Positions 1,923-24,466 of a DNA stretch of 37,848 bases are shown one piece after another. The DNA comes from Verrucomicrobia bacterium Ga0077533. GTDB lineage: Bacteria; Verrucomicrobiota; Verrucomicrobiia; Opitutales; Opitutaceae. Position numbers and translations under genes: made by a program. The notes under the pieces are model-generated. The model searched no databases. It had not been told where the DNA came from and saw nothing but the letters and a program-made list of their open reading frames with translations. Location: assembly GCA_001464505.1 (NCBI GenBank), contig LNEH01000208.1:1-37848 (forward strand). Reading direction: 5' to 3'. Each line of letters starts with the position of its first letter. Within the stretch, counting starts at the first letter, position 1.

Positions 1923-3209
1923 TCAGACGGTTTCGAGCCAAAGCGCGCCGCCCTGGCCGCCGCCGACGCAGAGTGAAACGACAGCCCGCTGGCCACCCCG
2001 GCGACGGAGTTCGCGCAGCGCCGTGAGCACGAGGCGCGCCCCGGATGCCCCGACCGGATGACCGAGCGCGATGGCACCGCCGTTGACGTTGAGTTTTTCC
2101 ATCGGGATCTCACCGAGGGCGCTCTCACGGCCGAGATGCTGGCGGCAAAACTCCGTCGACGCCGCGGCGGCGCGGCACGCGAGCACTTGCGCGGCGAAGG
2201 CCTCGTTGATCTCGACCAGGTCGGCGTCCTGCAACCGGAGGCCGGTGAGTTTTTCCACCTTGGCCAAGGCGTAAACCGGGCCGAGGCCCATGCGGGCGGG
2301 CTCGCAGCCGGCGTAGGCGAAGCCGACGAGTTTGCCGATGGGCTTCAGGCCCGTGCGTTTGAGTCCGGCTTCGGTCATCACGAGCAGCGCCACGGCGCCA
2401 TCGGTGATTTGCGAGGCGTTGCCGGCGGTGACCGTGCCGCCGCGCTTGTCGAAAACCGCCTTCAGCTTGCCGAGCGCCTCCATCGTCTGGCCGTCGCGCA
2501 CGCCGTTGTCACTCTCGACGGCCGCCGCTTCGCGGCCGCCGCGCGGGTAGACGGGTGTGATCTCCTCCCTGAACTTGCTGCGCGCGGCCTCGGCCCGCTG
2601 GTGGGATTGCAGCGCGAACTGGTCCTGCATGTCGCGGGTGAGCTGCCAGTCGCGCGCCAGCAGCTCGGCCGTCTGGCCCATGCCCAGGCCGCAGACCGGA
2701 TCGGTGAGGCCGAGCATCAGCGCGATGCGGGGGGCAAAATCGGACGGGCGGAACGCGAGCAGCGCCGCGGTCTTCTGGCCGGCGGTCTTCGCCTTCCCGA
2801 GCGCGGCGTATTTCTTCACGGCGCTGGCGTTGTAAAGCAGCGGGTAGTGGCTCATGCTCTCGGTGCCGCCCACGAGAAAGATGTCCCCGCGGCCATTGGC
2901 CGCCTTGTCGGACGCCTGCGTGATCGCCTCGAAACCCGACGCGCAGTTGCGCGACACGGTGATGGCCGGCACCGACTCCGGCACGCCGGCGCGGAGCGCG
3001 ATGACCCGGGCGACATTCGCGGCATCAACGGGATTCCCGACGCACCCGAAGACAACCTCGTCGATCATCGCGGGATCAAGGGCGGTGCGGGCGAGCACGG
3101 CGGCGGCCGCGGTGCGGCCCAGCTCGGTGGCATCGCAGGCGGCGAGCGTCGTGCCCATCTTCGCGAACGGCGTGCGCACGCCGTCGACAAGGTAGAGGGG
3201 TTCTTTCAT
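1923..3209 (-). CDS. fadI: FadI-type acetyl-CoA C-acyltransferase (3-ketoacyl-CoA thiolase)
   Basis: Thiolytic cleavage of 3-ketoacyl-CoA to acetyl-CoA and a shortened acyl-CoA, the last beta-oxidation step. The 428-residue length fits FadI (about 436) better than FadA (about 387). Nucleophile Cys89 lies in SRNCASGFEA. NEAFAAQVL, the active-site His384 in GGAIALGHPVGASG and the second Cys414 in CVGGGQGG are all present. Its start overlaps the stop of the upstream ligase gene by ATGA (3206-3209), and the FadJ-type gene follows 11 bases after its stop, giving the order ligase, thiolase, hydratase/dehydrogenase. All catalytic residues are intact, so activity is expected. Chain-length preference cannot be read from the sequence. 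Confidence 0.96.
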   Translation of the reverse strand: MKEPLYLVDGVRTPFAKMGTTLAACDATELGRTAAAAVLARTALDPAMIDEVVFGCVGNPVDAANVARVIALRAGVPESVPAITVSRNCASGFEAITQASDKAANGRGDIFLVGGTESMSHYPLLYNASAVKKYAALGKAKTAGQKTAALLAFRPSDFAPRIALMLGLTDPVCGLGMGQTAELLARDWQLTRDMQDQFALQSHQRAEAARSKFREEITPVYPRGGREAAAVESDNGVRDGQTMEALGKLKAVFDKRGGTVTAGNASQITDGAVALLVMTEAGLKRTGLKPIGKLVGFAYAGCEPARMGLGPVYALAKVEKLTGLRLQDADLVEINEAFAAQVLACRAAAASTEFCRQHLGRESALGEIPMEKLNVNGGAIALGHPVGASGARLVLTALRELRRRGGQRAVVSLCVGGGQGGALWLETV

Positions 3210-4753
3210 GGGCGGACGGCGTTTTGCGGGCTTGGACCGGTGGTCGCGGCAGCGGCACCGGGACTGGCCGGCCCCGTGGCCTTGGGCCGGTTATCCACCA
3301 CCCGTTGTTCCTTGAGGGCGACGCCTACTTTTTGGAGCGTGCGCATCTGCTCCTGGTTGTGGAAATTGATCTTGTTGGGCCGCATTTCAAACCGGGAGTG
3401 GAGCATGTTGCTCAGCTGTGTGTTGAGGGTCTCGTTGGCCTGGTCGCTGGTCTTGGTGACGTGCAGATGGATCTCGTCCAGCTCGAGCGGATCATCCTGC
3501 GCCTTGCGCAGCTCGATCTGCCACGAGCCGATGCCCGGGACGTCGTCGAGCGCGTGTTCGAGTTCATTGAAGTCAAGGATGGTGCCCTTGATCTTCTGGA
3601 AACGCATCGCGCGGAAATCGGACACGCGGGAGATGCGGCCCATGAGGCGCGGCATGCGGCGGCCGCAGCAGGAACACGGCTTGTAGGTGAGCCCGTGCTC
3701 AATGTGGTCGCCCGTGCGATAGCGGAGCACGACGGTTCCGCGTTGCTCCAGCGGCGTCCAGACGATCTCGCCGCCGGTGTCATCGGGCTGCACGCGGCCG
3801 GTCTCGGGGTCGATCACCTCGAAGATGCCGAGGTCGGGATAGAGATGGTAACCCGGCGGTGTCTGGCCCGGCGGATAGGGGCACTCCGCCCACGCGAGTT
3901 TGGCTTCGGTAAACCCGTAGGTGGCGATCACGGTCACATCGGGCGATCCCAGCTGGGCGCTAAGCTCGGCCAGCTTGCGTCGCATGCCCTCGGGGACTTT
4001 CTCGCCGCCGAGCAGCAGGACCTTCGCCCCCTCGATCCGCAGCCCTTCCTGCACGGCCTGGGTGAGCGCATGGTAGAGGAAGGTCGGCATGCCCGAGATG
4101 ACCTGCGGCTTGATTTTTTGGATGGCCCGGAGGTTGCCTTCGGTGCCCATCACCTTGCCGCCGCCGGTGGAGAGACAGAAAATGTTCCGGTCGATGCCGG
4201 CATAATACATATACCAGAAGGCGAGATGCGGCGCGAAGGGAAACATGTTCAGCATCCGGTTCTCGCGGGAGTGCGGATTCATGTCGGCAATGCGTCCCGC
4301 CCCGAGGCCGAGATTGCGGATGTCGTGCTGCGAATAGAGAAAGGCCACCGACTCCGTGGAGCGACCGGTGGTCGCCGTCATGAACGTCGGCCGCCATTCG
4401 CGGTCGAGTTCGTCGCGCACCCGGGCCCGGCCATGCAGCAGGGCGCGCAGAATGACCGAGGGGCGGCGGGCGAGCTTGGCCGGATCGGGTTGCAGCACAA
4501 ATTCGAGCGACTTGCGCGGAGCCTCGGGCGTCGGCAGCAGATCCACTTTGCTGGTGAAGGGAATTTTGTGCAGATCACCGACCGTGCGGATGTCACCGGC
4601 TGTGAGACCGTGTTCGGCGAAGACTTTCCGGTAGTGCGGGGAGAACGGCAGCACGCAGTCGCGCAGATACTCGTGCAGCTTGCGTCCTTGCAGTTCAAGG
4701 CACGTGTCCCTGTCCAAGCTGTGCCATTTTTTTGTCAGTTTGGCGTGCGACAT
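3206..4753 (-). CDS. PaaK-like acyl/aryl-CoA ligase (ANL superfamily)
   Basis: AMP-forming CoA ligase resembling phenylacetate-CoA ligase and coenzyme F390 synthetase; it would activate a carboxylic acid for the pathway below it. Visible ANL motifs are the P-loop-like TATTGRSTES (about 127-136), YGFTE (282-286) and YRTGD (348-352). A CSCCG cluster at 363-367 corresponds to the Cys pair many PaaK proteins carry here. At 515 residues it is longer than PaaK (about 430); the last 30 or so residues are a Pro/Ala/Thr tail that looks disordered. It is the first gene of the leftward operon and faces the DUF4442 gene across a dyad-rich region. The substrate is unknown: a fatty acid fits the neighbours, phenylacetate fits the family name, and no ring-cleavage genes are seen here. 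Confidence 0.85.
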   Translation of the reverse strand: MSHAKLTKKWHSLDRDTCLELQGRKLHEYLRDCVLPFSPHYRKVFAEHGLTAGDIRTVGDLHKIPFTSKVDLLPTPEAPRKSLEFVLQPDPAKLARRPSVILRALLHGRARVRDELDREWRPTFMTATTGRSTESVAFLYSQHDIRNLGLGAGRIADMNPHSRENRMLNMFPFAPHLAFWYMYYAGIDRNIFCLSTGGGKVMGTEGNLRAIQKIKPQVISGMPTFLYHALTQAVQEGLRIEGAKVLLLGGEKVPEGMRRKLAELSAQLGSPDVTVIATYGFTEAKLAWAECPYPPGQTPPGYHLYPDLGIFEVIDPETGRVQPDDTGGEIVWTPLEQRGTVVLRYRTGDHIEHGLTYKPCSCCGRRMPRLMGRISRVSDFRAMRFQKIKGTILDFNELEHALDDVPGIGSWQIELRKAQDDPLELDEIHLHVTKTSDQANETLNTQLSNMLHSRFEMRPNKINFHNQEQMRTLQKVGVALKEQRVVDNRPKATGPASPGAAAATTGPSPQNAVRP

Positions 4754-4926: not shown

Positions 4927-5418
4927 ATGGCTGAGTCGTGGAAAATCAAACTGCTGCGCTGGCGCATGAACTGGTATCCGGCCTTCCGGAATACCGGGGC
5001 CCGCATCATTTATATTTCAGAGGACCTGCTCGAAACCCGGGTGCGGTTGCCCTTGTGCCGGGCGACCCGCAACATCCATGGGACCATTTATGGCGGCTCG
5101 ATGTATGCGGCCGTGGACCCGCTGCACGCGGTCATGATGGCGGCTCATCTCGGACCGGACTATCATGTCTGGATGAAGTCGGCGAAAATCGAGTTCCGCC
5201 GGCCCGGCACAGGTGATCTTTACGCTCATGCCCGCCTGCAGCGGCAGGACATTGAGGCCGTCCGGGCCGCGCTGCTTCACGAGGACAAGGTCGACCGCGA
5301 TTTCGCCATCTCCCTGGCCGACAAAGCCGGCGCTGTGTCCGCCCTCTTCACCCTCACCTTGCATTTCTGCCGCCGGGCGGCGCACGAACGGCCGATGCAA
5401 TCCCTTGTTTTCCCATGA
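4927..5418 (+). CDS. DUF4442 hotdog-fold protein, probable acyl-CoA thioesterase
   Basis: A 163-residue protein with the DUF4442 hotdog signature: RNIHGTIYGGSMYAAVDP, then LGPDYHVWMKSAKIEFRRPG. Family members resemble PaaI-type thioesterases and would hydrolyse acyl-CoA to free acid and CoA. The frame is open upstream to 4732, but the first 60 or so residues of that extension run through the dyad-rich regulatory region, so ATG 4927 is chosen; ATG 4909 (six residues longer) is equally possible. The stop overlaps the SDR start by ATGA (5415-5418), so translation is coupled. A thioesterase at the head of a beta-oxidation operon could recover CoA from acyl groups that stall. Catalytic residues were not assigned. 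Confidence 0.85.
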   Translation: MAESWKIKLLRWRMNWYPAFRNTGARIIYISEDLLETRVRLPLCRATRNIHGTIYGGSMYAAVDPLHAVMMAAHLGPDYHVWMKSAKIEFRRPGTGDLYAHARLQRQDIEAVRAALLHEDKVDRDFAISLADKAGAVSALFTLTLHFCRRAAHERPMQSLVFP

Positions 5419-6245
5419 AGCGCCTGCTCGACCGCACCATTCTGATCACCGGCGCCAGCCGCGGCATCGGCCGGGCCATCGCCCTCGCCGCCGCGCGGGA
5501 AGGCGCAAACATCGTCATCGCCGCCAAGACGGCGGAACCGCATGCCAAACTGCCCGGCACCATCCACACGGTGGCCGCGGAAGTCCGGGCCCTTGGGGTC
5601 CGGGCACTCCCGTTGCAGATCGATGTCCGCGAAGAAACCCAGGTCGCCGATCTGATGACCGCCGTCGAAAAGGAATTCGGCCGGCTCGACGCCCTCATCA
5701 ACAACGCCGGGGCGATCCAGCTCACGAACGTCGCCAACACCCCGGTCAAGCGCTACGATCTCATGCAGCAGGTGAATGCCCGCGCCGTGTTTGTCTGCGC
5801 CAAGGCCGCCCTGCCCCTGCTGCGGCGGGCCGGCGGCGGCCACATCATCAGCCTGTCACCCCCGCTCAACCTCCGCGCCAAATGGCTGGCCCCGCACGCC
5901 CCCTACACGCTGTCCAAATTCGGCATGACGCTGCTTTCCCTCGGCCTGGCCGGTGAGTTCGCCGCCGACAAGATTTCCGTCACCACGCTGTGGCCGCGCA
6001 CCACCATCGCCACGGCCGCCATCGAGTTCGCCGTCGGCGCCCAGCTCCTCCCGCTCTGCCGCACCGCCGAGATCATGGCCGATGCCGCGCTGGAAATACT
6101 CGCCACCGCCGACCAGTCACTCACGGGCCAGACCCTCCTCGACGAGGATTTTCTCCGCACGCGCGGCTGGACGGATTTCCGCCGCTACGCGCACAACCCG
6201 GCCTACGCCGACCAGTTGTTTCCGGATCTCTTCATCGACCCCTGA
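5415..6245 (+). CDS. HSDL2-like short-chain dehydrogenase/reductase
   Basis: NAD(P)-dependent oxidoreductase, 276 residues, classical SDR Rossmann fold. TGASRGIG lies at 12-19, NNAG at 96-99, and the catalytic Ser148, Tyr164 and Lys168 (YTLSK) are intact. Stretches such as IVIAAKTAEPHAKLPGTI, TPVKRYDLM and SLSPPLNL are characteristic of the family of eukaryotic HSDL2 (hydroxysteroid dehydrogenase-like 2), a peroxisomal/mitochondrial SDR linked to fatty-acid metabolism; the C-terminal SCP2 domain of HSDL2 is absent. It is translationally coupled to the DUF4442 gene and sits 21 bases before the ScfR-like regulator. The substrate is unknown; an acyl-CoA or fatty-alcohol derivative is a guess from context. 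Confidence 0.9.
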   Translation: MKRLLDRTILITGASRGIGRAIALAAAREGANIVIAAKTAEPHAKLPGTIHTVAAEVRALGVRALPLQIDVREETQVADLMTAVEKEFGRLDALINNAGAIQLTNVANTPVKRYDLMQQVNARAVFVCAKAALPLLRRAGGGHIISLSPPLNLRAKWLAPHAPYTLSKFGMTLLSLGLAGEFAADKISVTTLWPRTTIATAAIEFAVGAQLLPLCRTAEIMADAALEILATADQSLTGQTLLDEDFLRTRGWTDFRRYAHNPAYADQLFPDLFIDP

Positions 6246-6266: not shown

Positions 6267-7796
6267 ATGTCCGCCGCCACCCTTCCGCGCCCGCCGGCCC
6301 GAACCGCCCCTGCGGTGCCGCCGAGCGAGCAGAACCTGCGCTTTATCCTGGGCCTGAAACTCAACCAGTTCCGCAAGCAGCAGGATCTTTCGCTGGCGGA
6401 GCTCGCCAACCGCGCCGGCATGGCCATCTCCTACCTCAGCGAGATAGAAAAAGGGAAAAAATACCCCAAACCCGAAAAAATCCTCTCCCTCGCCAAGGCC
6501 CTCGGCGTCAGCTTCGACGATCTCGTCTCGCTCCATCTCGGGGACAAGCTCCATCCGCTCTCCGGCGTGCTCAAGTCCGGCATCCTGCAGGAGATGCCGC
6601 TGGAGGTCTTCGGCCTCACGCCGACCGGCCTGCTCGAGATGATGTCCGACGAGCCGCAGAAGATCAGCGCGCTCTTCGACACCTTTGTCAAAATCGCCCG
6701 CCGCTTCGACGTGAAGATCGAGCACCTGCTGCTCGCCGCCATGCGCTCGCACGTCGAGCAGAACAAGAATTATTTTGAGGACATCGAGCAGACCGCCGAG
6801 GCGTTCCGCCTCGCGCAAGGCTGGGAGCGCCGCCCCGTGCCCGATTTCGCCTTGCTGCGCGATCACCTCGTCACGGCCGGCGGCTACACCATCGACGAGC
6901 ACACGCTCGCGGGGCACGCGGAGCTGCACGACCTGCGGGCGATCACCCTGCGGGGTGACACCACCCGCCCCCGCCTGCTGCTCAATCCCCAGCTGGGGGA
7001 ATGGCAGCGCGCGTTCCTGCTGGCCCGCGAGATCGGCCGCCGGCAGCTCGGCCATCACGAGGCCGTCTCCACCTCGCCCATCGTGGAGGTCGGTTCCTTC
7101 GACCAGTTGCTGAACAATTTTCGCGCCTCCTACTTTGCCGGCGCCCTCCTGCTCGACCGGCAGTTGCTGGTCGCCGACCTCCGTCAATTTTTCGCCCAGC
7201 CCGCCTGGGACGGCGCCGCGCTCATTGCCATCAAGCGGAAATACCAGGCGACCCCCGAAATGTTTTTCCACCGCCTCTCGCAGATCGTGCCGCGCTTCTT
7301 CGGTCTCGAGCAGATGTTTTTCGTGCGCTTCGACCACCGCCGCGGCACCCCGCAGGTGCGCATCGGCAAGGAACTGCACTACCAGCGCATGCATGTATCG
7401 CACAGCCTCGGCGTCAACGAACACTATTGCCGGCGCCTGGTCTCACTCGAGGCGCTCCGGCTATTCGAGGAGCAGCAGGCCGCCACCGGCTCCGCGACCA
7501 CCGTCGCCAGTGCCCAACGCTCACGCTATTATGCGTCCCACGACGAATACTTTTCCATCGCCCTCGCCCATCCGCAGAATCTCGACGCCGGCCTGAATTC
7601 GTGCGTCACAATCGGTTTTCAGATGAACGACGCCTTCCGGCACGCCGTGAACTTCTGGAACGACCGCGCGCTGGCCACCCACATCGTGGGCGACACCTGC
7701 GAGCGCTGCGGCATCGCCGACTGCGCCGTGGCACGCCCGGCAGCTTACCGCGCTTTGCCAACTTGCCGGCCGTGTGTGAGCCTGTTTGCGTCATAG
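6267..7796 (+). CDS. ScfR-type transcriptional regulator (XRE HTH + IrrE/ImmA-like domain + Cys-rich C-terminus)
   Basis: DNA-binding regulator, 509 residues. An XRE helix-turn-helix (about 28-85, with LSLAELANRAGMAISYLSEIEKGKKYP) precedes a long ligand domain of the DUF955 type and a DUF2083-like C-terminus. This architecture is that of the short-chain fatty acyl-CoA regulators (RamB, PccR and relatives), which sense acyl-CoA and control propionate, acetate or glyoxylate genes. The DUF955 HExxH motif is degenerate (REIGR at 254-258), so a working metalloprotease is unlikely. A Cys cluster CERCGIADC (478-486) and CRPC (500-503) closes the protein. The gene lies inside the operon, 21 bases after the SDR and 21 before etfB, suggesting autoregulation together with the beta-oxidation genes. 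Ligand and operator are not proven. Confidence 0.85.
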   Translation: MSAATLPRPPARTAPAVPPSEQNLRFILGLKLNQFRKQQDLSLAELANRAGMAISYLSEIEKGKKYPKPEKILSLAKALGVSFDDLVSLHLGDKLHPLSGVLKSGILQEMPLEVFGLTPTGLLEMMSDEPQKISALFDTFVKIARRFDVKIEHLLLAAMRSHVEQNKNYFEDIEQTAEAFRLAQGWERRPVPDFALLRDHLVTAGGYTIDEHTLAGHAELHDLRAITLRGDTTRPRLLLNPQLGEWQRAFLLAREIGRRQLGHHEAVSTSPIVEVGSFDQLLNNFRASYFAGALLLDRQLLVADLRQFFAQPAWDGAALIAIKRKYQATPEMFFHRLSQIVPRFFGLEQMFFVRFDHRRGTPQVRIGKELHYQRMHVSHSLGVNEHYCRRLVSLEALRLFEEQQAATGSATTVASAQRSRYYASHDEYFSIALAHPQNLDAGLNSCVTIGFQMNDAFRHAVNFWNDRALATHIVGDTCERCGIADCAVARPAAYRALPTCRPCVSLFAS

Positions 7797-7817: not shown

Positions 7818-8573
7818 ATGAAAATCCTCGTTCCCCTCAAACGGGTTCCCGATCCCGACACCAAAATCCGCCTGAAGGCCGACGGCTCGGGCATCGAAAC
7901 CGATGGCGTGAAGTTTGCCGTCAACCCCTTTGATTCGATCGCCCTCGAGGAAGCCCTGCGCCAGCGCGAAAAGACCGGCGCCGCCGAGATTGTCGTTGTG
8001 ACCATTGGCGGCGAAGAGTGCGCCGAACAACTGCGCACCGGCCTGGCCATGGGGGCTGACCGCGCGATCCTGGTAAAAACCACGGCCAACCCCGATTCGC
8101 TTGCCGTCGCCAAGGTGCTCGCCGCCGTCTGCCGGAAAGAGCAGCCGGCCTTCGTGATCATGGGCAAGCAGGCGATCGATGATGACTCGAACCAGGCCGG
8201 CCAGATGCTCGCCGCCCTGCTGGGCCTCGGGCAGATCACCTTTGTTTCCAAACTCGAGCTGACCGACGGCAACCGGCGCGCCCGCTGCAGCCGCGAGACC
8301 GACGCCGGCATCGAAAATCTAACCATCAGTCTGCCGGCCGTCCTGACGGCCGACCTGCGGCTCAACGAACCGCGCTATGTCTCGCTGCCGGGCATCATGA
8401 AAGCCAAGAAAAAGCCCCTCGAGGAGCTCACCCCCGAGTCGCTCGGCGTCAGTGCCGCCAGTCGCACCCGCGTCCTCAAGCTGGAGCGGCCCGCGGGTCG
8501 CAAAGCCGGCGTGCGCGTCAAGACGGTGGACGAACTCATCGCCAAACTCCGCCACGAAGCCAAAGTCCTGTGA
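7818..8573 (+). CDS. etfB: Electron transfer flavoprotein beta subunit
   Basis: Small subunit of the soluble ETF heterodimer that takes electrons from acyl-CoA dehydrogenases. At 251 residues it has normal length. It carries GKQAIDDDSNQAGQM and the ETF-beta signature LRLNEPRYVSLPGIMKAKKK. These are features of the ordinary (mitochondrial-type, AMP-binding) ETF group, which argues against flavin-based electron bifurcation. The next gene, 13 bases on, is the alpha subunit, followed by a membrane oxidoreductase and dehydrogenases, so the whole electron route is encoded consecutively. Confidence 0.97.
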   Translation: MKILVPLKRVPDPDTKIRLKADGSGIETDGVKFAVNPFDSIALEEALRQREKTGAAEIVVVTIGGEECAEQLRTGLAMGADRAILVKTTANPDSLAVAKVLAAVCRKEQPAFVIMGKQAIDDDSNQAGQMLAALLGLGQITFVSKLELTDGNRRARCSRETDAGIENLTISLPAVLTADLRLNEPRYVSLPGIMKAKKKPLEELTPESLGVSAASRTRVLKLERPAGRKAGVRVKTVDELIAKLRHEAKVL

Positions 8574-8586
8574 TCATCCGTCTCCC

Positions 8587-9558
8587 ATGAACCGCATACT
8601 CGTCATCGCCGAACACGACCAAGGGCACCTGAAGCTCGCCACCTTCGCCGCCGCCGGCTTCGCGCAGAAAGTCTGCGCGGCGGCGGGCGGCACGTTTGAT
8701 TTTCTTCTTCTCGGCTCCGGCCTCGCTGCCGCCGCGGAGGGATTGCGCCGGTCCGGCGCCGCCGCCGTGCTCGTCGCCGACTCGACCGAGCTGACGCAGC
8801 CGCTCGCCGACCGCTGCGCGCAGGTCATCGCCGACACCGTCCGCGCGCGCGCGGCCACCCTCGTCGTCGCGGCCACCTCCACCTTCAGCAAGGACATCCT
8901 CCCGCGCGCGGCCGCCCTGCTCGACGCCGGCATGCTGAGCGACGTGATCGACGTGCGCCGCGAAGGCGACGACCTGACCTTCCGCCGCGTGATGTTCGCC
9001 GGCAACGTGATCGCCACCGTGCAGCTCGATGGCCCCATCAAGTGCGTTGCCGTGCGCAGCGCCGCCTTCGCCGCCCCGGCCGCCACCGAGGCGCTCTCGC
9101 CCGTCGAGGCCGTCGCCGTCGACGCCGCGGCCCTTCCCAAATTCGCCGAATTCATCAGCCGCGAGACGAAAGTCAGCGCCCGCCCCGACGCCACCGAGGC
9201 GCGCATCATCGTCTCCGGCGGCCGGGCCCTGAAGAACGCCGCCGATTTTGAGCGTCTCGTGGGCGGACTCGCGGACCAGCTGGGCGCCGCGGTCGGCTCC
9301 TCCCGCGCGCTGGTTGACTCGGGCATCACGCCCAATTCGCTGCAGATCGGCCAGACGGGCAAAGTCGTCGCGCCCGATCTCTATTTCGCCCTCGGCATTT
9401 CCGGCGCCATCCAGCACATGGCCGGCATGAAGGACACCAAGGTCATCGCCGCGATCAACAAGGATCCCGATGCTCCCATCTTCGAGATCGCCGACTACGG
9501 CCTGGTGGCCGATGTCTACGAGGCCGTGCCGGAGCTGATGCAAAAACTAAAAACGTGA
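8587..9558 (+). CDS. etfA: Electron transfer flavoprotein alpha subunit
   Basis: FAD-binding subunit of ETF, 323 residues from ATG 8587; upstream in-frame codons overlap etfB and are discarded. The C-terminal FAD domain is textbook: [39 protein letters not shown], then [18 protein letters not shown]. The stop overlaps a GTG start of the next gene (GTGA, 9555-9558), coupling ETF synthesis to its presumed membrane acceptor. With EtfB it carries electrons from the FadE-like and glutaryl-CoA dehydrogenases encoded downstream. Confidence 0.97.
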
Positions 9559-10856
9559 CCCCCACCCGCGAGACGTTCGGCAACATCCCCCTCTCCTCCC
9601 AGCTCGCGTTTTACGCGCTGGCGATGGTGGCCATGGGAATTTTTTGCTGGGGCGTCTGGCGGCGGTGGAAACTCTGGCAGCTCGGCACGCCGATTGACTT
9701 CCGCGGGTTGATCACCGGCAATCTCGCCGCCGTCTGGCAAAAAATCCGCCCCGGCGCCAGGCGCGTCGCCGTCGATGCGGTCGCCCAGCAGCGCGTGCGC
9801 GGCCACGGCCTCGGCACGGTGGCGCACCTCAGCCTCTACCTTGGTTTCATGGCGCTGCTCGCGGGCACGACCTTGCTTGAGCTCGACAACATCCTTTCGC
9901 ACATCTCCCCGGCGTTGAAATTTCACCACGGCCTCTACTACGTCGTTTACGAGTTCACCCTCGATGTGCTCGGGCTGTTTTTTATTCTGGGCACGATCTT
10001 GTTTTTTGTCCGCCGGTTGTCCAAGCCGGCGGCGCTGGGCCACCGCGCGACCGACTGGTATGTGCTCTGGTCCTTCCTCGCCATGGGCATCACGGGTTAC
10101 CAGGTCGAAGGGCTCCGCATCGTCTGGCAGCAACCGGTCGGGCTTGCCGCCCATTGCTCGCCGGTGGGTCTCTGGATCGCGGGTTGGTTTGCCGGTTGGA
10201 GCGAGGCCGAGGCGCGCTCCGCCCACTTCGCGGTCTGGTGGATCCATGCGTTCCTCGTCTTCGGTTTCATCGCGTCGATCCCGTTCACGCGGCTGTTCCA
10301 TTTCATCGCCGGGCCGATGAACCTCTTCCTCGCCCAACCGTCCCTCGGCGTGCTGCCGGTCGTGACGATGGCGGAGGTCGAGCAAACCGGGCGCGTCGGC
10401 GTGGGCGACATCCGCCATTTCTCCGTGCAGGAACTGCTGAGCCTCGACGCCTGCATGGAGTGCGGCCGCTGCGAGGAGGTCTGCCCGGCCTTCGCCACCG
10501 CCAAGCCCCTGTCGCCGAAACGCGTCGTGCAGGATCTCAAGAGCCTGATGGAGACGACCGCCGCGGATCTGGCCGCCGGCCGGAAGGAAACCCGCGCGCT
10601 GCACACGGAGACCATCCAGGCCGAAACGCTCTGGAGCTGCACGGCGTGCAGCGCCTGCGTGAACGTCTGCCCGGTGCGCATCGACCAGCTCAAGTTTATC
10701 GTTCACCTGCGCCGTCATCTCGTGGCCGAGGGCGGCCTGAGCGGCACCGCCGCCACCGCCCTGCGCCGCATGCAGTCCAACGCCAACCCCTGGGGCCTGC
10801 CGCCCGCCGAGCGCGCCAACTGGACCGAGGGCCTGACCGTCAAAACCACCTCATGA
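9555..10856 (+). CDS. Membrane cytochrome b / 2x[4Fe-4S] subunit of a predicted ETF:(mena)quinone oxidoreductase
   Basis: A 433-residue membrane protein starting at GTG 9555, which overlaps the etfA stop. The N-terminal part has about five NarI-like transmembrane segments (roughly 14-34, 88-110, 126-151, 166-184, 226-248) with His residues able to bind heme b (for example 91, 124/125, 224, 231, 249). The cytoplasmic C-terminal part has two ferredoxin motifs, CMECGRCEEVCP (Cys 300, 303, 306, 310) and CTACSACVNVCP (Cys 362, 365, 368, 372). In ETF:menaquinone oxidoreductases of syntrophic fatty-acid oxidisers these modules are fused to a CCG domain; here the CCG domain is the next, ATGA-overlapping gene. 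Predicted role: pass electrons from reduced ETF to the quinone pool. Function is inferred from architecture and neighbours. Confidence 0.88.
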   Translation: MTPTRETFGNIPLSSQLAFYALAMVAMGIFCWGVWRRWKLWQLGTPIDFRGLITGNLAAVWQKIRPGARRVAVDAVAQQRVRGHGLGTVAHLSLYLGFMALLAGTTLLELDNILSHISPALKFHHGLYYVVYEFTLDVLGLFFILGTILFFVRRLSKPAALGHRATDWYVLWSFLAMGITGYQVEGLRIVWQQPVGLAAHCSPVGLWIAGWFAGWSEAEARSAHFAVWWIHAFLVFGFIASIPFTRLFHFIAGPMNLFLAQPSLGVLPVVTMAEVEQTGRVGVGDIRHFSVQELLSLDACMECGRCEEVCPAFATAKPLSPKRVVQDLKSLMETTAADLAAGRKETRALHTETIQAETLWSCTACSACVNVCPVRIDQLKFIVHLRRHLVAEGGLSGTAATALRRMQSNANPWGLPPAERANWTEGLTVKTTS

Positions 10857-11644
10857 GCACCGCCCCCGCCGTCCCCGCCGCCCCGACCGTGAAGGAAAAC
10901 CCGTCCTTTGAGCTGCTCTACTGGATCGGTTGCGCCGCTGCCTATGACCGCCGCGCCCAGCGCGTGGCGCGCGCCGTCGTCAAGCTGCTCAACCACGCCA
11001 AGGTCAACTTCGCCATTCTGGGCCGCGAGGAGAAATGCACCGGCGACTCGGCGCGCCGCCTCGGCGACGAGTTTCTTTTTCAGGAGCTCGCCACCGCCAA
11101 CATCGCGACCCTCGCGCACTACAACGTGAAGCGCATCGTCGCGCACTGCCCGCACTGCGTGAACGCGCTGCTGCGGGACTACGCGCCGTTCGGCGGCCAA
11201 TACGAGGTCGTCCACCACACGCAGTTGCTCGCCTCTTTGATCAAGGAAGGCCGCCTTCCCGCCGTGCCGGGTGCCGTCGCCCCGCCCCCGGGCGAAGTCA
11301 CCTACCATGACCCGTGTTACCTGGCCCGGGTGAACGGCATCCACGAGGCGCCGCGCGAGGTGCTGCAGACCGCGCTCGGCGGCGGGTCGCTCTGCGAGAT
11401 GAAGCGCAACCGCACCGGCACTTCCTGTTGCGGTGCCGGCGGCGGGCGCATGTGGATGGAGGAGGATCCGAAGCACCGGGTCTCCACCGAGCGCGCCAAG
11501 GAGGCCTTGGACACCGGCGCCAAAACCGTGGCGGTCGGCTGTCCGTTCTGCCTCACCATGATGACCGACGGCGTGGCCGCCCACGGCAGCGAGGCCCGCG
11601 TCCTGGATGTCGCCGAACTCCTCGTGGAAAAACTCGGCCTCTGA
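10853..11644 (+). CDS. HdrB-like CCG-domain subunit of a predicted ETF:(mena)quinone oxidoreductase
   Basis: A 263-residue cysteine-rich protein with two CCG-type domains, as in HdrB, GlpC and lactate-utilisation LutA. Domain 1 has Cys27, Cys62 (CTGD in place of CCG) and CPHC (99-102). Domain 2 has Cys155, CCG (192-194) and CPFC (230-233). Such domains bind non-cubane or [4Fe-4S] clusters. ATG 10853 overlaps the stop of the membrane subunit (ATGA), and the frame upstream lies inside that gene. With the preceding gene it reconstitutes the domain set of the single-chain ETF:menaquinone oxidoreductase. The first CCG motif has lost one Cys, so domain 1 may hold a different cluster or none. Confidence 0.87.
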   Translation: MSTAPAVPAAPTVKENPSFELLYWIGCAAAYDRRAQRVARAVVKLLNHAKVNFAILGREEKCTGDSARRLGDEFLFQELATANIATLAHYNVKRIVAHCPHCVNALLRDYAPFGGQYEVVHHTQLLASLIKEGRLPAVPGAVAPPPGEVTYHDPCYLARVNGIHEAPREVLQTALGGGSLCEMKRNRTGTSCCGAGGGRMWMEEDPKHRVSTERAKEALDTGAKTVAVGCPFCLTMMTDGVAAHGSEARVLDVAELLVEKLGL

Positions 11645-11685: not shown

Positions 11686-13482
11686 ATGTCCGCCCAAAAA
11701 GATCTGCCCGCCCATCTGACTGGCGGTAATTTTCTGTTTACCGAGACGAATCCCGCTCTCGTTTTCACCCCCGAGGAACTCACCGGCGATGAGCGCGAAA
11801 TGGCCTCCACCGCCGAGAAATTCATGGACAAGGAGGTGTTCCCGCACCTGGAGGCGCTGGAACATCGCGAGGAAGGTCTCGCGCCCAAACTTTTCCGGCA
11901 GGCGGCCCAACTGGGGTTGCTCGGCCTGGAGGTCCCCGAGGAATACGGCGGCCTCGGCCTCGGCAAGGTCGCCGGCATCGGCGTCGCCGAGCAGATCAGC
12001 CGGCTCGCGGGTTTCGGCATCACCTGCGGCGCCCACAGCGGCATCGGCACGGGCCCCATCACGTATTTCGGCAACGAGGCCCAGAAGAAAAAATACCTCC
12101 CGCGCCTGGCGCCCGGCGAGCTGATGGCCGCCTACTGCCTCAGCGAGGCCGGCTCCGGCTCCGACGCGCTGGGCATGAAGACCAAGGCCGTGCTCAACGC
12201 CGCCAAGACCCACTACGTGCTCAACGGCGCGAAGATGTGGATCACCAACGCCGCCTGGGCGGATGTCTTCGTCGTGTTCGCCAAGGTCGACGGCGAGCAC
12301 GTCACCGCCTTCATCGTCGAAAAAACCTTCCCCGGCGTCTCCACCGGCCGCGAGGAACTCAAGCTCGGGCTCAAGACCTCGTCCACCCGCCGCGTCATCC
12401 TCGAGGACGCGCAGGTGCCGGTCGAAAACGTGCTGGGCGAGGTCGGCAAGGGTGCCTACATCGCGTTCAACATCCTCAACCTCGGCCGCTTCACGCTTGG
12501 CGCCGGCGCCATGGGCGCGGCGAAGGACCTCCTCCGCACCGCGGTGAAATACGCCGGCGAGCGCCAGCAGTTCGGCCGGCCGATCGCCTCCTTCGGCCTG
12601 ATCCAGCACAAGCTCGGCGAGATGGCCGCACGCATCTACGCGCTCGAAAGCGCGCTCTACCGCACCGCCAGCCAGATGGACCAGGTCAAGGCCACCGGCG
12701 AGCTGGTCTACTCGATGAAGGCCGGTCACTTCCGCGCCATCGAGGAGTTCGCCCTGGAGTGCTCCGCCGTGAAAGTGGCCGGCAGCGAGATCCTCACCTT
12801 CGTTGCCGACGAGGCCCTGCAGATCCACGGCGGCTTCGGCTTCACCGAGGAATTTTCCCCCGCCCGCGGCACCCGCGACGCGCGCATCAACCGCATTTTC
12901 GAGGGCACCAACGAAATCAACCGCCTCTTCATTCCCACCAACCTCCTCCGTCGCGCCGCCAAGGGCAAACTCGCCCTCATGGCCGCCGCCATGGCGGCGT
13001 TCGCCGACGCCCAGAAGGAATCCGCCCCGGAAAAGACCGGCGACGACCTCGCCGCCGCCCAGTTCGTCCTTGGCCGCGCGAAGAAGGCCGTGCTCCTGCT
13101 CTTCGGCGGCGCCCACCAGAAATTCGGCGACAAGATCATCCATGAGCAGGAAGTCCTCGCCGTGCTCAGCGACCTCGTGATCGACATCTTCCTCGGCGAA
13201 AGCGCCGTGCTCCGCGCCCTGAAGCTCCGCGGCCAGAGCCCCAACGCCGGCACGCACGCCGACCTCGCGCTGGTCTTCGTCAACGACAGCGTCGCCCGCA
13301 TGGAGAACCGCGCCCGCGACGCCATCGCCCACATGGCCACCGGGGACGAGCTGAAGATGCAGTTGGGGCTCGCGCGCAAGATGCTCCGCTGGACGCCGCT
13401 CGACACCGTCGCCCTGCGCCGCCGGATCGCCGCCCGCCTCGGCACGGTCGGTTCCTACCCGGCGCTCATCGCCGCGAAATAG
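11686..13482 (+). CDS. fadE: Long-form acyl-CoA dehydrogenase (FadE/VLCAD-like)
   Basis: Flavoprotein dehydrogenase introducing the trans-2 double bond into acyl-CoA and passing electrons to ETF. From ATG 11686 it has 598 residues, the size of Bacillus FadE (about 594), with an extra C-terminal helical region compared with 380-residue dehydrogenases. The N-terminus FTPEELTGDER is typical of this group. Also visible are CLSEAGSGSDALGMKT, MWITNAAWAD, RQQFGRPI and the catalytic base Glu406 in FEGTNEI. The codons in frame upstream of ATG 11686 lie in the CCG-domain gene and are ignored. It follows that gene by 41 bases. Long-chain preference is inferred from the subgroup. Confidence 0.94.
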   Translation: MSAQKDLPAHLTGGNFLFTETNPALVFTPEELTGDEREMASTAEKFMDKEVFPHLEALEHREEGLAPKLFRQAAQLGLLGLEVPEEYGGLGLGKVAGIGVAEQISRLAGFGITCGAHSGIGTGPITYFGNEAQKKKYLPRLAPGELMAAYCLSEAGSGSDALGMKTKAVLNAAKTHYVLNGAKMWITNAAWADVFVVFAKVDGEHVTAFIVEKTFPGVSTGREELKLGLKTSSTRRVILEDAQVPVENVLGEVGKGAYIAFNILNLGRFTLGAGAMGAAKDLLRTAVKYAGERQQFGRPIASFGLIQHKLGEMAARIYALESALYRTASQMDQVKATGELVYSMKAGHFRAIEEFALECSAVKVAGSEILTFVADEALQIHGGFGFTEEFSPARGTRDARINRIFEGTNEINRLFIPTNLLRRAAKGKLALMAAAMAAFADAQKESAPEKTGDDLAAAQFVLGRAKKAVLLLFGGAHQKFGDKIIHEQEVLAVLSDLVIDIFLGESAVLRALKLRGQSPNAGTHADLALVFVNDSVARMENRARDAIAHMATGDELKMQLGLARKMLRWTPLDTVALRRRIAARLGTVGSYPALIAAK

Positions 13483-13556
13483 AACCCGGCTTGCCTCGCG
13501 GCCCAACTCCCGGCAACTGATTGCCTGCGCGTCACACCCAGCGGGTGCGCCGCGCA

Positions 13557-13572
13557 GACGGCGTGCGCCGTC
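13557..13572. promoter_or_regulatory. Small inverted repeat in the gcdH leader
   Basis: GACGGCG-TG-CGCCGTC is a perfect 7-base inverted repeat 30 bases upstream of the gcdH ATG, within the 119-base gap after fadE. It could be an operator or an RNA hairpin over the leader. It may also be chance in such GC-rich sequence. Confidence 0.25.
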
Positions 13573-13601
13573 CCGTCGTATCCCTCACCTCCTCTCCTGC
13601 C

Positions 13602-14795
13602 ATGAAAAAATCCGCCACTAAAGCCGTCTTCCGCTGGGAAGACCCGTTTCTCCTCGAGGACCAACTGACCGAGGAGGAGCGCATGGTGCGCGATACCGCG
13701 CGGAATTACTGCCAGGGCAAGCTGATGCCCGGCATCATCGAGGCCAACCGCCACGAGAAGTTTGATCGCGCCATCCTCCACCAGCTCGGCGAACTCGGGC
13801 TGCTCGGCTCGACCATCGAGGGCTACGGCTGCGCCGGCGTGAACTACGTGAGCTACGGCCTGGTCGCCCGCGAGGTGGAGCGGGTGGACTCCGGCTACCG
13901 CTCGGTGATGAGCGTGCAGTCCTCCCTCGTGATGTTCCCCATCCACGCCTACGGCTCGGAGGAGCAGCGCAAAAAATTCCTGCCGAAGCTCGCGGCCGGC
14001 GATTGGGTCGGCTGCTTCGGCCTGACCGAGCCCAATTCCGGCTCCGATCCCGGCAGCATGACCACCCGCGCGCGCAAGGTCGCCGGCGGCTACCGGCTCA
14101 ACGGCACCAAGACGTGGATCACCAACTCGCCCATCGCCGACGTCTTTATTGTCTGGGCCAAGGACGACGAGGGGGAGATCCGCGGTTTCATCCTCGAAAA
14201 AGCCATGAAGGGCCTCACCGCGCCGAAAATCGAGGGGAAGTTCTCCCTGCGCGCCTCGCCCACCGGCATGATCGTGATGGAGGACGTCGCGGTGCCCGAC
14301 GAAAACCTGCTGCCCAACGTCAAGGGCCTCAAGGGCCCCCTCGGCTGCCTGACCAAGGCCCGCTACGGCATCTCGTGGGGCGCGCTCGGCGCCGCGGAGT
14401 TTTGCTGGCACGCCGCGCGCCAATACACCCTCGATCGCAAACAATTCGGCCGGCCCCTCGCCGCCAACCAGCTGATCCAGCTCAAGCTCGCCAACATGCA
14501 GACCGAGATCACCCTCGCGCTGCAGGGCGCGCTGCGCGTCGGCCGGCTGATGGACGAGGGCAAATGCACCCCCGAGATGGTCTCGCTGGTGAAACGCAAT
14601 TCCTGCGGCAAGGCGCTCGACATCGCCCGGCTCGCCCGCGACATGCACGGCGGCAACGGCATCGTGGACGAATACCACGTCATCCGCCACGTGATGAATC
14701 TGGAATCCGTGAACACTTACGAAGGCACACACGACATCCACGCGCTCATCCTCGGCCGCGCCCAGACGGGCATCCAGGCCTTTGGTCCGGAGTAG
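13602..14795 (+). CDS. gcdH: Glutaryl-CoA dehydrogenase
   Basis: Oxidative decarboxylation of glutaryl-CoA to crotonyl-CoA and CO2, with electrons going to ETF. From ATG 13602 it has 397 residues, the normal size. The family-specific patch [15 protein letters not shown] carries Arg100, matching the substrate-carboxylate Arg of characterised enzymes. [25 protein letters not shown], the RYGISWG segment and the catalytic base Glu374 in [18 protein letters not shown] are all present. An upstream in-frame ATG at 13521 would add a basic, non-conserved 27-residue stretch, so it is not used. Its crotonyl-CoA product can enter the FadJ/FadI-type enzymes encoded in the leftward operon. The glutaryl-CoA source (lysine, tryptophan or aromatics) is not in the window. 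Confidence 0.95.
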
Positions 14796-22822: not shown

Positions 22823-24466
22823 TTAGACATGAAAGGCTTCAGCGGCCACTGTATCAATTTCCGTCTGATTGATTGAGCGTGCCACCGCAGCCAAGCGATG
22901 CACCAAATCGCTTGAAAGTGAGGATGCCAGCGGGACGCGCAATTTTCTCAAGACCTGTGCCTGATACCTAACTGCACCGCCACGCATTTGCACCGAAACA
23001 GCCCGAACCTGATTGTAGACGAATGTGCTACGTAAAACCGCCTGAAGCGCATGCAGGTTCCAACCCAGGGAAGTGATCCAATAAAGATTGTGATGGGGGT
23101 AGTAATTGCCGGCATCCCAACCGACAACACCTCCATTCTGGATGTCTGGCAGGAGAAGTTTTGGTGTGCCAGTGAGTTCGTAAGAGACACGATCTATGGT
23201 GCGAAACCACATCTCGGGACTCTTCCGCGCGGTGTGTCGCTTCTCCAGTCGCTCACGGTGGTGCTCAAAGTAAGCTGCCAGACCTGGTGTATCGCTCATG
23301 GAATGAAACCCGCCATCAGGAGAGGATTTATACGGGTTGATTAGATAATGGCCCGACCAATTCAAAGATTCGGCCGTCACATCCTTAGCCATGATAAGTG
23401 GCAATTGACAATAGTCCTCCACAGAAGCCTCTTTTGAGGGACGCACAAAAATGTCGTCCGCGCCTGTGGCGACCCCGATTCCAACGCGAGTTTGCTCGGC
23501 GGAATCTTCCAGCAACGGATACTGTTCGGCCAGGGCCTCATGCTGATCGAACGCCCCTTTGTTCGTCGCAACCCAAGGCGCCCCTTCAGGATACCATGAG
23601 GGGAATACCGACCATTCCGATGAATAACCATCTAGGAGGGAACGAAGTGTGGAACCATCAACACGGTCCAGCGTGGCGGCCCGCGTCTCTTTTCCCGTCT
23701 CTCGATCTAACACCACGATGCAGGGATAAGCCGACACATCGCTTACGAAAGGCTGGGTGTGTTCCAAGTTGAGAAAGAAACGAACCCGATATTGTCGTGA
23801 GATAAGCTCGCGCAGAGACCGGCCGTATTGATTCTTAACAAAACGGTTCGCGCAAATGAACGCCAACTGCCCGCCATCTGAGAGCAGGTGCAAGCCTTGC
23901 TCGAAAAATGCGATATAGAGATCGGCACGATCTACACAGGTCGGAAACAATTCGCGATAGCGCTGCATCACGCGCTGTGGCAGATCCTCAATGCGCACAT
24001 ATGGAGGATTGCCGATCACGAAATCGAAGCGCTCGCGCCAATGAGCGAGAAGAAAGTCAGCATGCTCTACCCAAACATTGGCCAGAATCCTTGCTCTTTC
24101 CCCAGGACACCCTTCCTGGATAAGCAACCGTTCGATCCGTCCACGCGCTTGGGTCACAAACCCGAGGTTAACATCACACGCTTTTAACGCCGTTACTAAT
24201 TGACCATCACTCCATGCAACTTTGCCCCGGTGATGCCGCTCCGAATCCAAAAGTCTCAGCACAGATGCCGCCAGAAAAGCCCCATCACCACAACTCGGCT
24301 CCAACAAGCGCTGATCAGCCAACCTGCTTAGCGTTGGTTGATAACCGGCCAGATCCAAAATGAATTCCGTGACTTCAGGTTTGGTAAAAACCGCCCCGAC
24401 TGGCTCAGTAGGTGCCGCGCCTTCCCAAACATCCCTCCAGTCTTGTTCAAAGAGTAATAGCGACAT
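22823..24466 (-). CDS. N6-adenine DNA methyltransferase of a XhoI/PaeR7I-type system
   Basis: Modification enzyme, 547 residues. SAM motif I is LLEPSCGDGAFL (54-65) and catalytic motif IV is NPPY (153-156), the N6-adenine type. The C-terminal half is a target-recognition domain as in gamma-type Taq/PaeR7I-like enzymes. The partner endonuclease gene ends 10 bases upstream, so the operon order is R then M. Since the partner is PaeR7I-like, the predicted target is CTCGAG, with methylation of the adenine. Base composition is visibly less GC-rich than the neighbours, consistent with horizontal acquisition. No C (controller) gene is visible. Specificity is inferred from the endonuclease. Confidence 0.93.
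   Translation of the reverse strand: MSLLLFEQDWRDVWEGAAPTEPVGAVFTKPEVTEFILDLAGYQPTLSRLADQRLLEPSCGDGAFLAASVLRLLDSERHHRGKVAWSDGQLVTALKACDVNLGFVTQARGRIERLLIQEGCPGERARILANVWVEHADFLLAHWRERFDFVIGNPPYVRIEDLPQRVMQRYRELFPTCVDRADLYIAFFEQGLHLLSDGGQLAFICANRFVKNQYGRSLRELISRQYRVRFFLNLEHTQPFVSDVSAYPCIVVLDRETGKETRAATLDRVDGSTLRSLLDGYSSEWSVFPSWYPEGAPWVATNKGAFDQHEALAEQYPLLEDSAEQTRVGIGVATGADDIFVRPSKEASVEDYCQLPLIMAKDVTAESLNWSGHYLINPYKSSPDGGFHSMSDTPGLAAYFEHHRERLEKRHTARKSPEMWFRTIDRVSYELTGTPKLLLPDIQNGGVVGWDAGNYYPHHNLYWITSLGWNLHALQAVLRSTFVYNQVRAVSVQMRGGAVRYQAQVLRKLRVPLASSLSSDLVHRLAAVARSINQTEIDTVAAEAFHV

Follow-up and report, generated by a model that had tools for sequence, protein, structure and literature searches.

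A putative two-gene form of an EtfD/EMO-type electron transfer flavoprotein:menaquinone oxidoreductase encoded behind etfBA in a Verrucomicrobiota lineage

A 37,848-nucleotide stretch of DNA (hereafter the window) from Verrucomicrobia bacterium Ga0077533 (Opitutaceae; contig LNEH01000208.1) carries, directly behind the genes for the two subunits of electron transfer flavoprotein (ETF), etfB and etfA, two further genes on the same strand, referred to herein by the convenience names emoA, for the membrane gene, and emoB, for the CCG gene, both coined in this analysis. The GTG start of emoA overlaps the stop of etfA (position 9558) by four nucleotides (GTGA), and the ATG start of emoB overlaps the end of emoA by four nucleotides (ATGA). 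The initial annotation of the window had reported these overlaps and the position behind etfBA with exact coordinates, and had proposed that a cytochrome b-like membrane part with two [4Fe-4S] motifs and a two-domain CCG protein constitute a two-subunit ETF:menaquinone oxidoreductase. The present analysis addresses the identity of the two proteins, their genomic context, the distribution of the split form, and the relation of the pair to known systems.

The gene pair and its cluster and heme ligands

Pfam assigns Nitrate_red_gam (PF02665, 1e-6) and Fer4_8 (6.8e-12) to EmoA and CCG (PF02754, 3.2e-31, in two stretches) to EmoB; the NarI-like, Fer4, and CCG domains expected from the initial annotation, and with them its description of both proteins, are hence borne out by the hidden Markov model search. 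The best sequence match of both proteins in the PDB is 9ojn (E values of 3.1e-71 for EmoB and 3.5e-24 for EmoA), the structure of EtfD of Mycobacterium smegmatis, which connects ETF to menaquinone according to the available part of the study describing it (PMC13083937). This entry is the sole PDB match below 1e-10 for either protein, the next being HdrB2 (7.5e-4) and HdrC (9.3e-5). Single-chain AlphaFold2 models, with a mean predicted local distance difference test score of 90.0 for EmoA and 91.6 for EmoB, have the same entry as top Foldseek match, with a template modelling score of 0.84 and 48% identity for EmoB and of 0.77 and 23% identity for EmoA. Pfam finds the Fer4_ETF_QO domain (PF05187) of the classical flavoprotein ETF:quinone oxidoreductase (ETF-QO) in neither protein.

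All ten cluster ligands in the CCG part of EtfD are present in EmoB. Briefly, C27, C62, C99, and C102 in the first CCG domain (D1) align with EtfD Cys503/538/581/584, and H101, C155, C192, C193, C230, and C233, the ligand set of the second domain (D2), correspond to EtfD His583 and Cys637/672/673/709/712. The available text of the EtfD study (PMC13083937, 2026) describes a linear [3Fe-4S] cluster in D1, where Thr539 replaces a cysteine of heterodisulfide reductase (Hdr) and thereby accounts for the cluster type, and a noncubane [4Fe-4S] cluster in D2, where His583 is among the ligands and stands in for the bridging cysteine of Hdr; EtfD is presented there as the first protein structure showing a linear [3Fe-4S] cluster. 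The first CCG motif of EmoB reads CTG (C62-T63-G64), as the initial annotation had correctly noted, although its suggestion of an altered cluster did not stand: T63 falls on EtfD Thr539 in the HMMER alignment, and a damaged first cluster was rejected because threonine at this position is the EtfD state. The aligned residues mark the motif as an EtfD-type site, so that, measured against EtfD, nothing points to a changed or missing cluster; by analogy, a linear [3Fe-4S] cluster would form in EmoB.

The ligand set is strongly conserved. An alignment of 54 relatives, from which the D1-lacking types were excluded, shows no variation at nine of these ten ligands; C102 is retained in 53, L114 being the exception. 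Position 63 is occupied by T in 43, C in nine, and N in two. A tally of the first motif over 101 loci, in which one place is counted twice (L006 = L046), gave CTGD 68, CSGD 13, CCGD 9, CTGE 5, NAGN 3, NSGN 1, CNGD 1, and CNGE 1. Three fused homologues of the same phylum, L042 (G292), L047 (G012), and L048 (G065), have CCG and not CTG in the first domain; therefore, the D1 site takes either cysteine or threonine while the histidine and the other ligands stay.

In EmoA, H91 and H249 align with the heme histidines His78 and His241 of EtfD, and two cubane motifs are formed by C300, C303, C306, C310 and C362, C365, C368, C372. In a comparison of 70 membrane proteins, to which the D1-lacking L043 and L045 do not belong, the eight cubane cysteines and H249 are present in all 70 and H91 in 68, the remaining two having gaps. 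Two further histidines could be ligands of a second heme: H231 occurs in 12/12 splits of the window type, in all four of L051, L053, L054, and L055, in 11/11 Bacteroidota-type splits, and in 24/43 other fused rows, and H124 occurs in the same 12 and four proteins, in 0/11 of the Bacteroidota-type splits shown, and in 3/43 other fused rows.

On these grounds, EmoA and EmoB very probably constitute one ETF:menaquinone oxidoreductase of the EtfD/EMO type (EMO being the enzyme of that name from Syntrophus), with the chain divided in the linker that joins the cubane domain to the CCG domains. The modules lie on one chain in the solved EtfD and on two open reading frames (ORFs) here, and the pair is for this reason treated as a variant architecture within the type and not as a canonical EtfD. 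The assembly of its two chains, the types of cluster, the quinone, and the direction in which electrons flow are predictions, and the docking of the two separate chains is predicted from homology. Assignment to the DgcB/FadF type was rejected: EmoB has the D1 cysteines, which FadF and DgcB lack in the available account (PMC13083937).

Genomic context and the direction of electron flow

The neighbouring genes are listed in Table 1; a DUF4442 protein is also encoded upstream of etfBA, alongside the regulator, the short-chain dehydrogenase/reductase, the CoA ligase-like protein, and the thiolase. By its gene content, the neighbourhood looks like a fatty-acid degradation locus. The RamB-like regulator gene sits before etfB, and its product may sense the supply of acyl-CoA or acetate.

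Table 1. Genes of the window considered in this analysis
Feature	Positions	Strand	Basis and remarks
Acetyl-CoA C-acyltransferase (thiolase)	1923..3209	-	TIGR01930 418.4 bits, cut-off 240.55
AMP-binding CoA ligase-like protein	3206..4753	-	PF00501 1e-11
Short-chain dehydrogenase/reductase (SDR) oxidoreductase, PRK08278 subfamily	5415..6245	+	376.1 bits, cut-off 250
Helix-turn-helix (HTH) and IrrE-like regulator, distantly like RamB (acetate metabolism regulator)	6267..7796	+	PF01381, PF06114; NF038139 RamB 1.9e-8, 33.4 bits, cut-off 700
etfB, electron transfer flavoprotein beta	7818..8573	+	PF01012 8.8e-41
etfA, electron transfer flavoprotein alpha	8587..9558	+	PF00766 5.3e-32, PF01012 2.9e-31
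emoA-like, NarI-like cytochrome b membrane part with two [4Fe-4S] cubane motifs	9555..10856	+	433 aa, GTG start; Pfam, EtfD 9ojn match, AlphaFold2/Foldseek, conserved H91, H249, and eight Cys
emoB-like, two-domain CCG protein with EtfD D1 (linear [3Fe-4S]) and D2 (noncubane [4Fe-4S]) ligand set	10853..11644	+	263 aa, ATG start; Pfam, 9ojn match, Foldseek, ligand columns
ACAD1, acyl-CoA dehydrogenase, FadE of Bacillus-type model	11686..13482	+	NCBIfam NF058590 734.2 bits, cut-off 600
ACAD2, second acyl-CoA dehydrogenase	13521..14795	+	PF02771, PF00441, PF02770; start codon not settled
Eco57I-type DNA methyltransferase	22823..24466	-	PADLOC MTase_II 522.2 bits

The pair probably delivers the electrons of beta-oxidation to menaquinone, a function deduced from homology and gene context. 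Acyl-CoA dehydrogenases would reduce EtfAB, which would dock on the soluble subunit EmoB and hand over its electrons via the D1 linear [3Fe-4S] and/or the D2 noncubane site; from there the electrons would pass along the cofactors of EmoA, namely both cubanes and a b heme, and reach menaquinone. The available text of the EtfD study leaves open which of the EtfD clusters meets ETF (PMC13083937).

Co-occurrence across the family supports this assignment. Among 150 family genomes, a CCG homologue was found in 17, ETF alpha in 17, and both in 16; the CCG gene is of the split type in 13 of the 17 that have a CCG homologue, only fused types occur in G292, G331, G352, and G405, and G388 carries both. 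ACAD1 (E <= 1e-60) is present in 13 of the 150, exactly the 13 with the split CCG gene. Fisher tests of the two co-occurrences gave p values of 2e-19 and 5e-19, which ignore the kinship of the genomes and thus overstate the evidence. The five genomes of the same genus that are devoid of the gene pair have neither ACAD1 nor the thiolase of the window at the same threshold. At the locus level, etfA lies directly upstream in 10/10 split loci whose stretch extends that far, with a four-nucleotide overlap in five, and ACAD1 lies directly downstream of the split pair in 13/13, one being cut by the contig end. The position of etfB varies among the 13 split loci: before etfA in six, just behind ACAD1 in four (L034, L036, L037, and L038), farther off on the other strand in one, and outside the examined stretch in two.

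The search for a classical ETF-QO, called for in the initial annotation, detected PF05187 in 0/61 drawn family genomes and in 0/18 that carry ETF or a CCG homologue, a set that contains all 13 split genomes, the window's own among them; the control set was positive in 3/14. Another ETF-QO domain, ETFQO_UQ-bd (PF21162), gave no match in 12 of the 13 genomes with the split gene. MenD, a single marker of menaquinone synthesis, scored above its cut-off in all five genomes tested (455.5 bits against 244.2 in the window's own). The futalosine marker PF02621 was not found, and this menaquinone route was rejected. The two-subunit ETF:menaquinone oxidoreductase put forward initially is accordingly favoured by EtfD homology, the ligands, the etfA-emoA-emoB-acyl-CoA dehydrogenase synteny, the co-occurrence with ETF, and the lack of PF05187 matches, with menaquinone as the presumed acceptor. 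The combination that had been named as the case against it, a classical ETF-QO together with linkage to a non-ETF pathway in relatives, was not encountered.

Several observations weigh against this assignment. The genome holding the window is a draft of 2.93 Mb in 226 contigs with 82.75% completeness, and one split genome, G388 (contamination 6), has a weak PF21162 match (38.5 bits, cut-off 27.7). Co-occurrence is imperfect, G338 (76% complete) having the CCG gene and no ETF match, and G375 (91% complete) having ETF and no CCG match; furthermore, etfB is not beside etfA in 5/13 split loci. EmoA resembles EtfD only remotely, at 23% identity. EtfD is described with one b heme (PMC13083937) and EMO of Syntrophus as diheme (PMC8805022), in the available parts of both sources, and either heme number may apply here.

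The same machinery might run mainly in reverse, with menaquinol reducing ETF and the acyl-CoA dehydrogenase reducing enoyl-CoA (enoyl-CoA respiration), as has been proposed for EMO in Syntrophus aciditrophicus on crotonate (available part of PMC8805022). Sequence cannot tell direction; however, the cluster looks degradative, with its FadE-type acyl-CoA dehydrogenase, thiolase, CoA ligase-like protein, and distantly RamB-like regulator, and reverse operation is considered unlikely.

A second ETF system was observed in L043 2674-16025 (G388), L044 5580-15678 (G292), L045 3-9910 (G331), and L049 3-5350 (G352). It comprises etfB, etfA, and genes for a fused EMO-like protein without D1 cysteines, an HdrD-like protein with Fer4 and CCG domains, and an HdrA2-like protein, together with an MvhD-like ORF (named by eye) and VhuG-like and VhuA-like [NiFe]-hydrogenase proteins, hypF adjoining in L043; the same pair of CCG matches occurs in G405:C100. 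It looks like a hydrogenase-Hdr-ETF cluster and is possibly electron-bifurcating, all model scores except that of HypF lying under the curated cut-offs, and L045 and L049 ending at a contig edge, the latter within HdrA.

The split in the family and beyond

The initial annotation had ascribed the two-subunit version to this organism; the split proved to be shared by its lineage. In 12/12 split loci with both genes on the contig, the window included, emoA and emoB are separate ORFs, which, together with the occurrence of the split type in 13 of 150 genomes, rules out chance or sequencing error: the split is fixed in the window's lineage. Within the 12 loci, the genes overlap by four nucleotides in seven (the window and six relatives), are separated by +1 to +3 nucleotides in three, and lie approximately 65 and 103 nucleotides apart in L040 and L037, respectively. 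Their frames are offset by 2 in eight loci (the window and seven relatives), by 1 in L034, L035, and L037, and by 0 in L033. These figures bear on the idea that both frames are translated into one protein, the ATGA overlap being passed by programmed frameshifting or by read-through of the stop. The recurrent four-nucleotide overlap and the existence of a true fusion in the close relative L051 would suit such a mechanism, but it is highly improbable because relative frame and spacing vary among the relatives, including the two wide gaps.

Split and fused homologues were counted, as had been suggested. A draw from the phylum gave matches at E <= 1e-20 in 8/288 genomes, five loci being split, all from the window's family, and three fused. 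Among the best 80 of 594 confirmed candidate loci, which are those closest to the query and not an even sample, 65 are fused, 13 are split, and two have a CCG gene with no membrane gene found nearby. The 14 Bacteroidota loci among these 80 comprise ten split loci, two with no membrane gene found nearby, and two fused loci; tblastn with the window's EtfAB found no ETF within the 14, a search that may miss distant ETFs.

In a quick tree, computed from 74 rows after 27 of the 101 loci had been dropped as near-copies or incomplete, the split proteins fall into two groups. One contains the window's family and L052 amid fused rows from Verrucomicrobiota, Planctomycetota, and Armatimonadota; the other contains Bacteroidota and one row without a named phylum beside fused Ignavibacteriota, Acidobacteriota, and Bacteroidota rows. 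Forcing all splits into a single clade costs 273.9 log-likelihood units in this tree (approximately unbiased test, p-AU 1.8e-58), and a single origin of all split forms was rejected. Acquisition of the split form by transfer out of Bacteroidota was likewise rejected, the window's clade grouping with fused Verrucomicrobiota, Planctomycetota, and Armatimonadota. The tree thus indicates that the split of the window's lineage arose separately from that in Bacteroidota. The cut site in both groups is the inter-domain linker between the cubane and CCG domains, behind an NPWG/APW stretch. The Bacteroidota splits (e.g., L071 and L128) share this cut and the CTGD motif with the window and differ in clade and in the lack of an etfAB match.

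The fused L051, on a contig of a Verrucomicrobiota metagenome-assembled genome, has the operon order etfB-etfA-EMO-acyl-CoA dehydrogenase of the window, and its CCG and membrane parts are 72% and 61% identical to those of the window, respectively. Unlike the window, it has a single open frame of 690 codons from stop to stop, in which a longer linker, exceeding also that of L053-L055, joins the modules, and it groups with the split rows in the tree; it is perhaps a re-fusion, or else splits occurred twice there. The L051 record is titled Akkermansia muciniphila, a title that may be wrong for this assembly.

A speculative explanation, to which we give little credence, is that independent splits in at least two lineages at the same linker, perhaps re-fused in L051, arose because a detachable EmoB is useful: it could bind cytoplasmic ETF and shuttle or exchange partners, and would thus serve as a soluble electron acceptor in place of a fixed domain. 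Such detachment would allow a CCG gene to stand apart from the membrane gene, as in the Bacteroidota loci L117 and L123, where no membrane gene was found nearby, and L126, where it lies 2.2 kb off.

Comparison with known systems

A heterodisulfide reductase-like or lactate/glycerol-3-phosphate-type enzyme with a non-ETF partner, conceivable because CCG and Fer4 domains are common to the TfrB, LdhH, GlpC, DsrK, and HdrB models, is very improbable, since matches to these models lie far under the curated cut-offs, Thr63 occupies the extra-cysteine position of Hdr in the first CCG domain (HdrB/HdrD members have the extra cysteine in both CCG motifs), His101 corresponds to the EtfD histidine replacing the bridging cysteine, and the pair is linked to ETF.

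Organisms that have no classical ETF-QO face a bottleneck of beta-oxidation in drawing electrons off ETF. As a naturally soluble subunit of 263 aa, expected to contain the two unusual clusters and no others, EmoB could open these to electron paramagnetic resonance and Moessbauer spectroscopy without the membrane protein, and it would be of use in asking which of them ETF contacts. A literature search, judged by titles and abstract openings and with most subscription journals outside its scope, recognised no description of a two-gene EtfD/EMO.

HdrBC and HdrDE have CCG and Fer4 folds related to those of the pair, and HdrB is a free-standing CCG protein like EmoB (Foldseek). In HdrDE the division falls between cytochrome b and a protein with Fer4 and CCG domains. 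Unlike EmoB, Hdr keeps the extra cysteines of its catalytic noncubane clusters (available part of PMC13083937). EMO of S. aciditrophicus, known here by its description in the available part of PMC8805022, is likewise a membrane-bound heme and iron-sulfur enzyme between ETF and (methyl)menaquinone; it is described as diheme, whereas the second heme of the window pair is a candidate only. The closest counterpart, EtfD of M. smegmatis (9ojn), shares with the pair the module order, the cluster and heme ligands, and the threonine at D1, and the partner ETF and acceptor menaquinone reported for it in the available part of PMC13083937 are those deduced here from the genes. It is a single chain, 1042 aa long, that ends in a disordered C-terminal region of approximately 30 kDa, whereas the window encodes 433 and 263 aa with no such tail. 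The enzyme type is already known, and the two-chain form is the variant.

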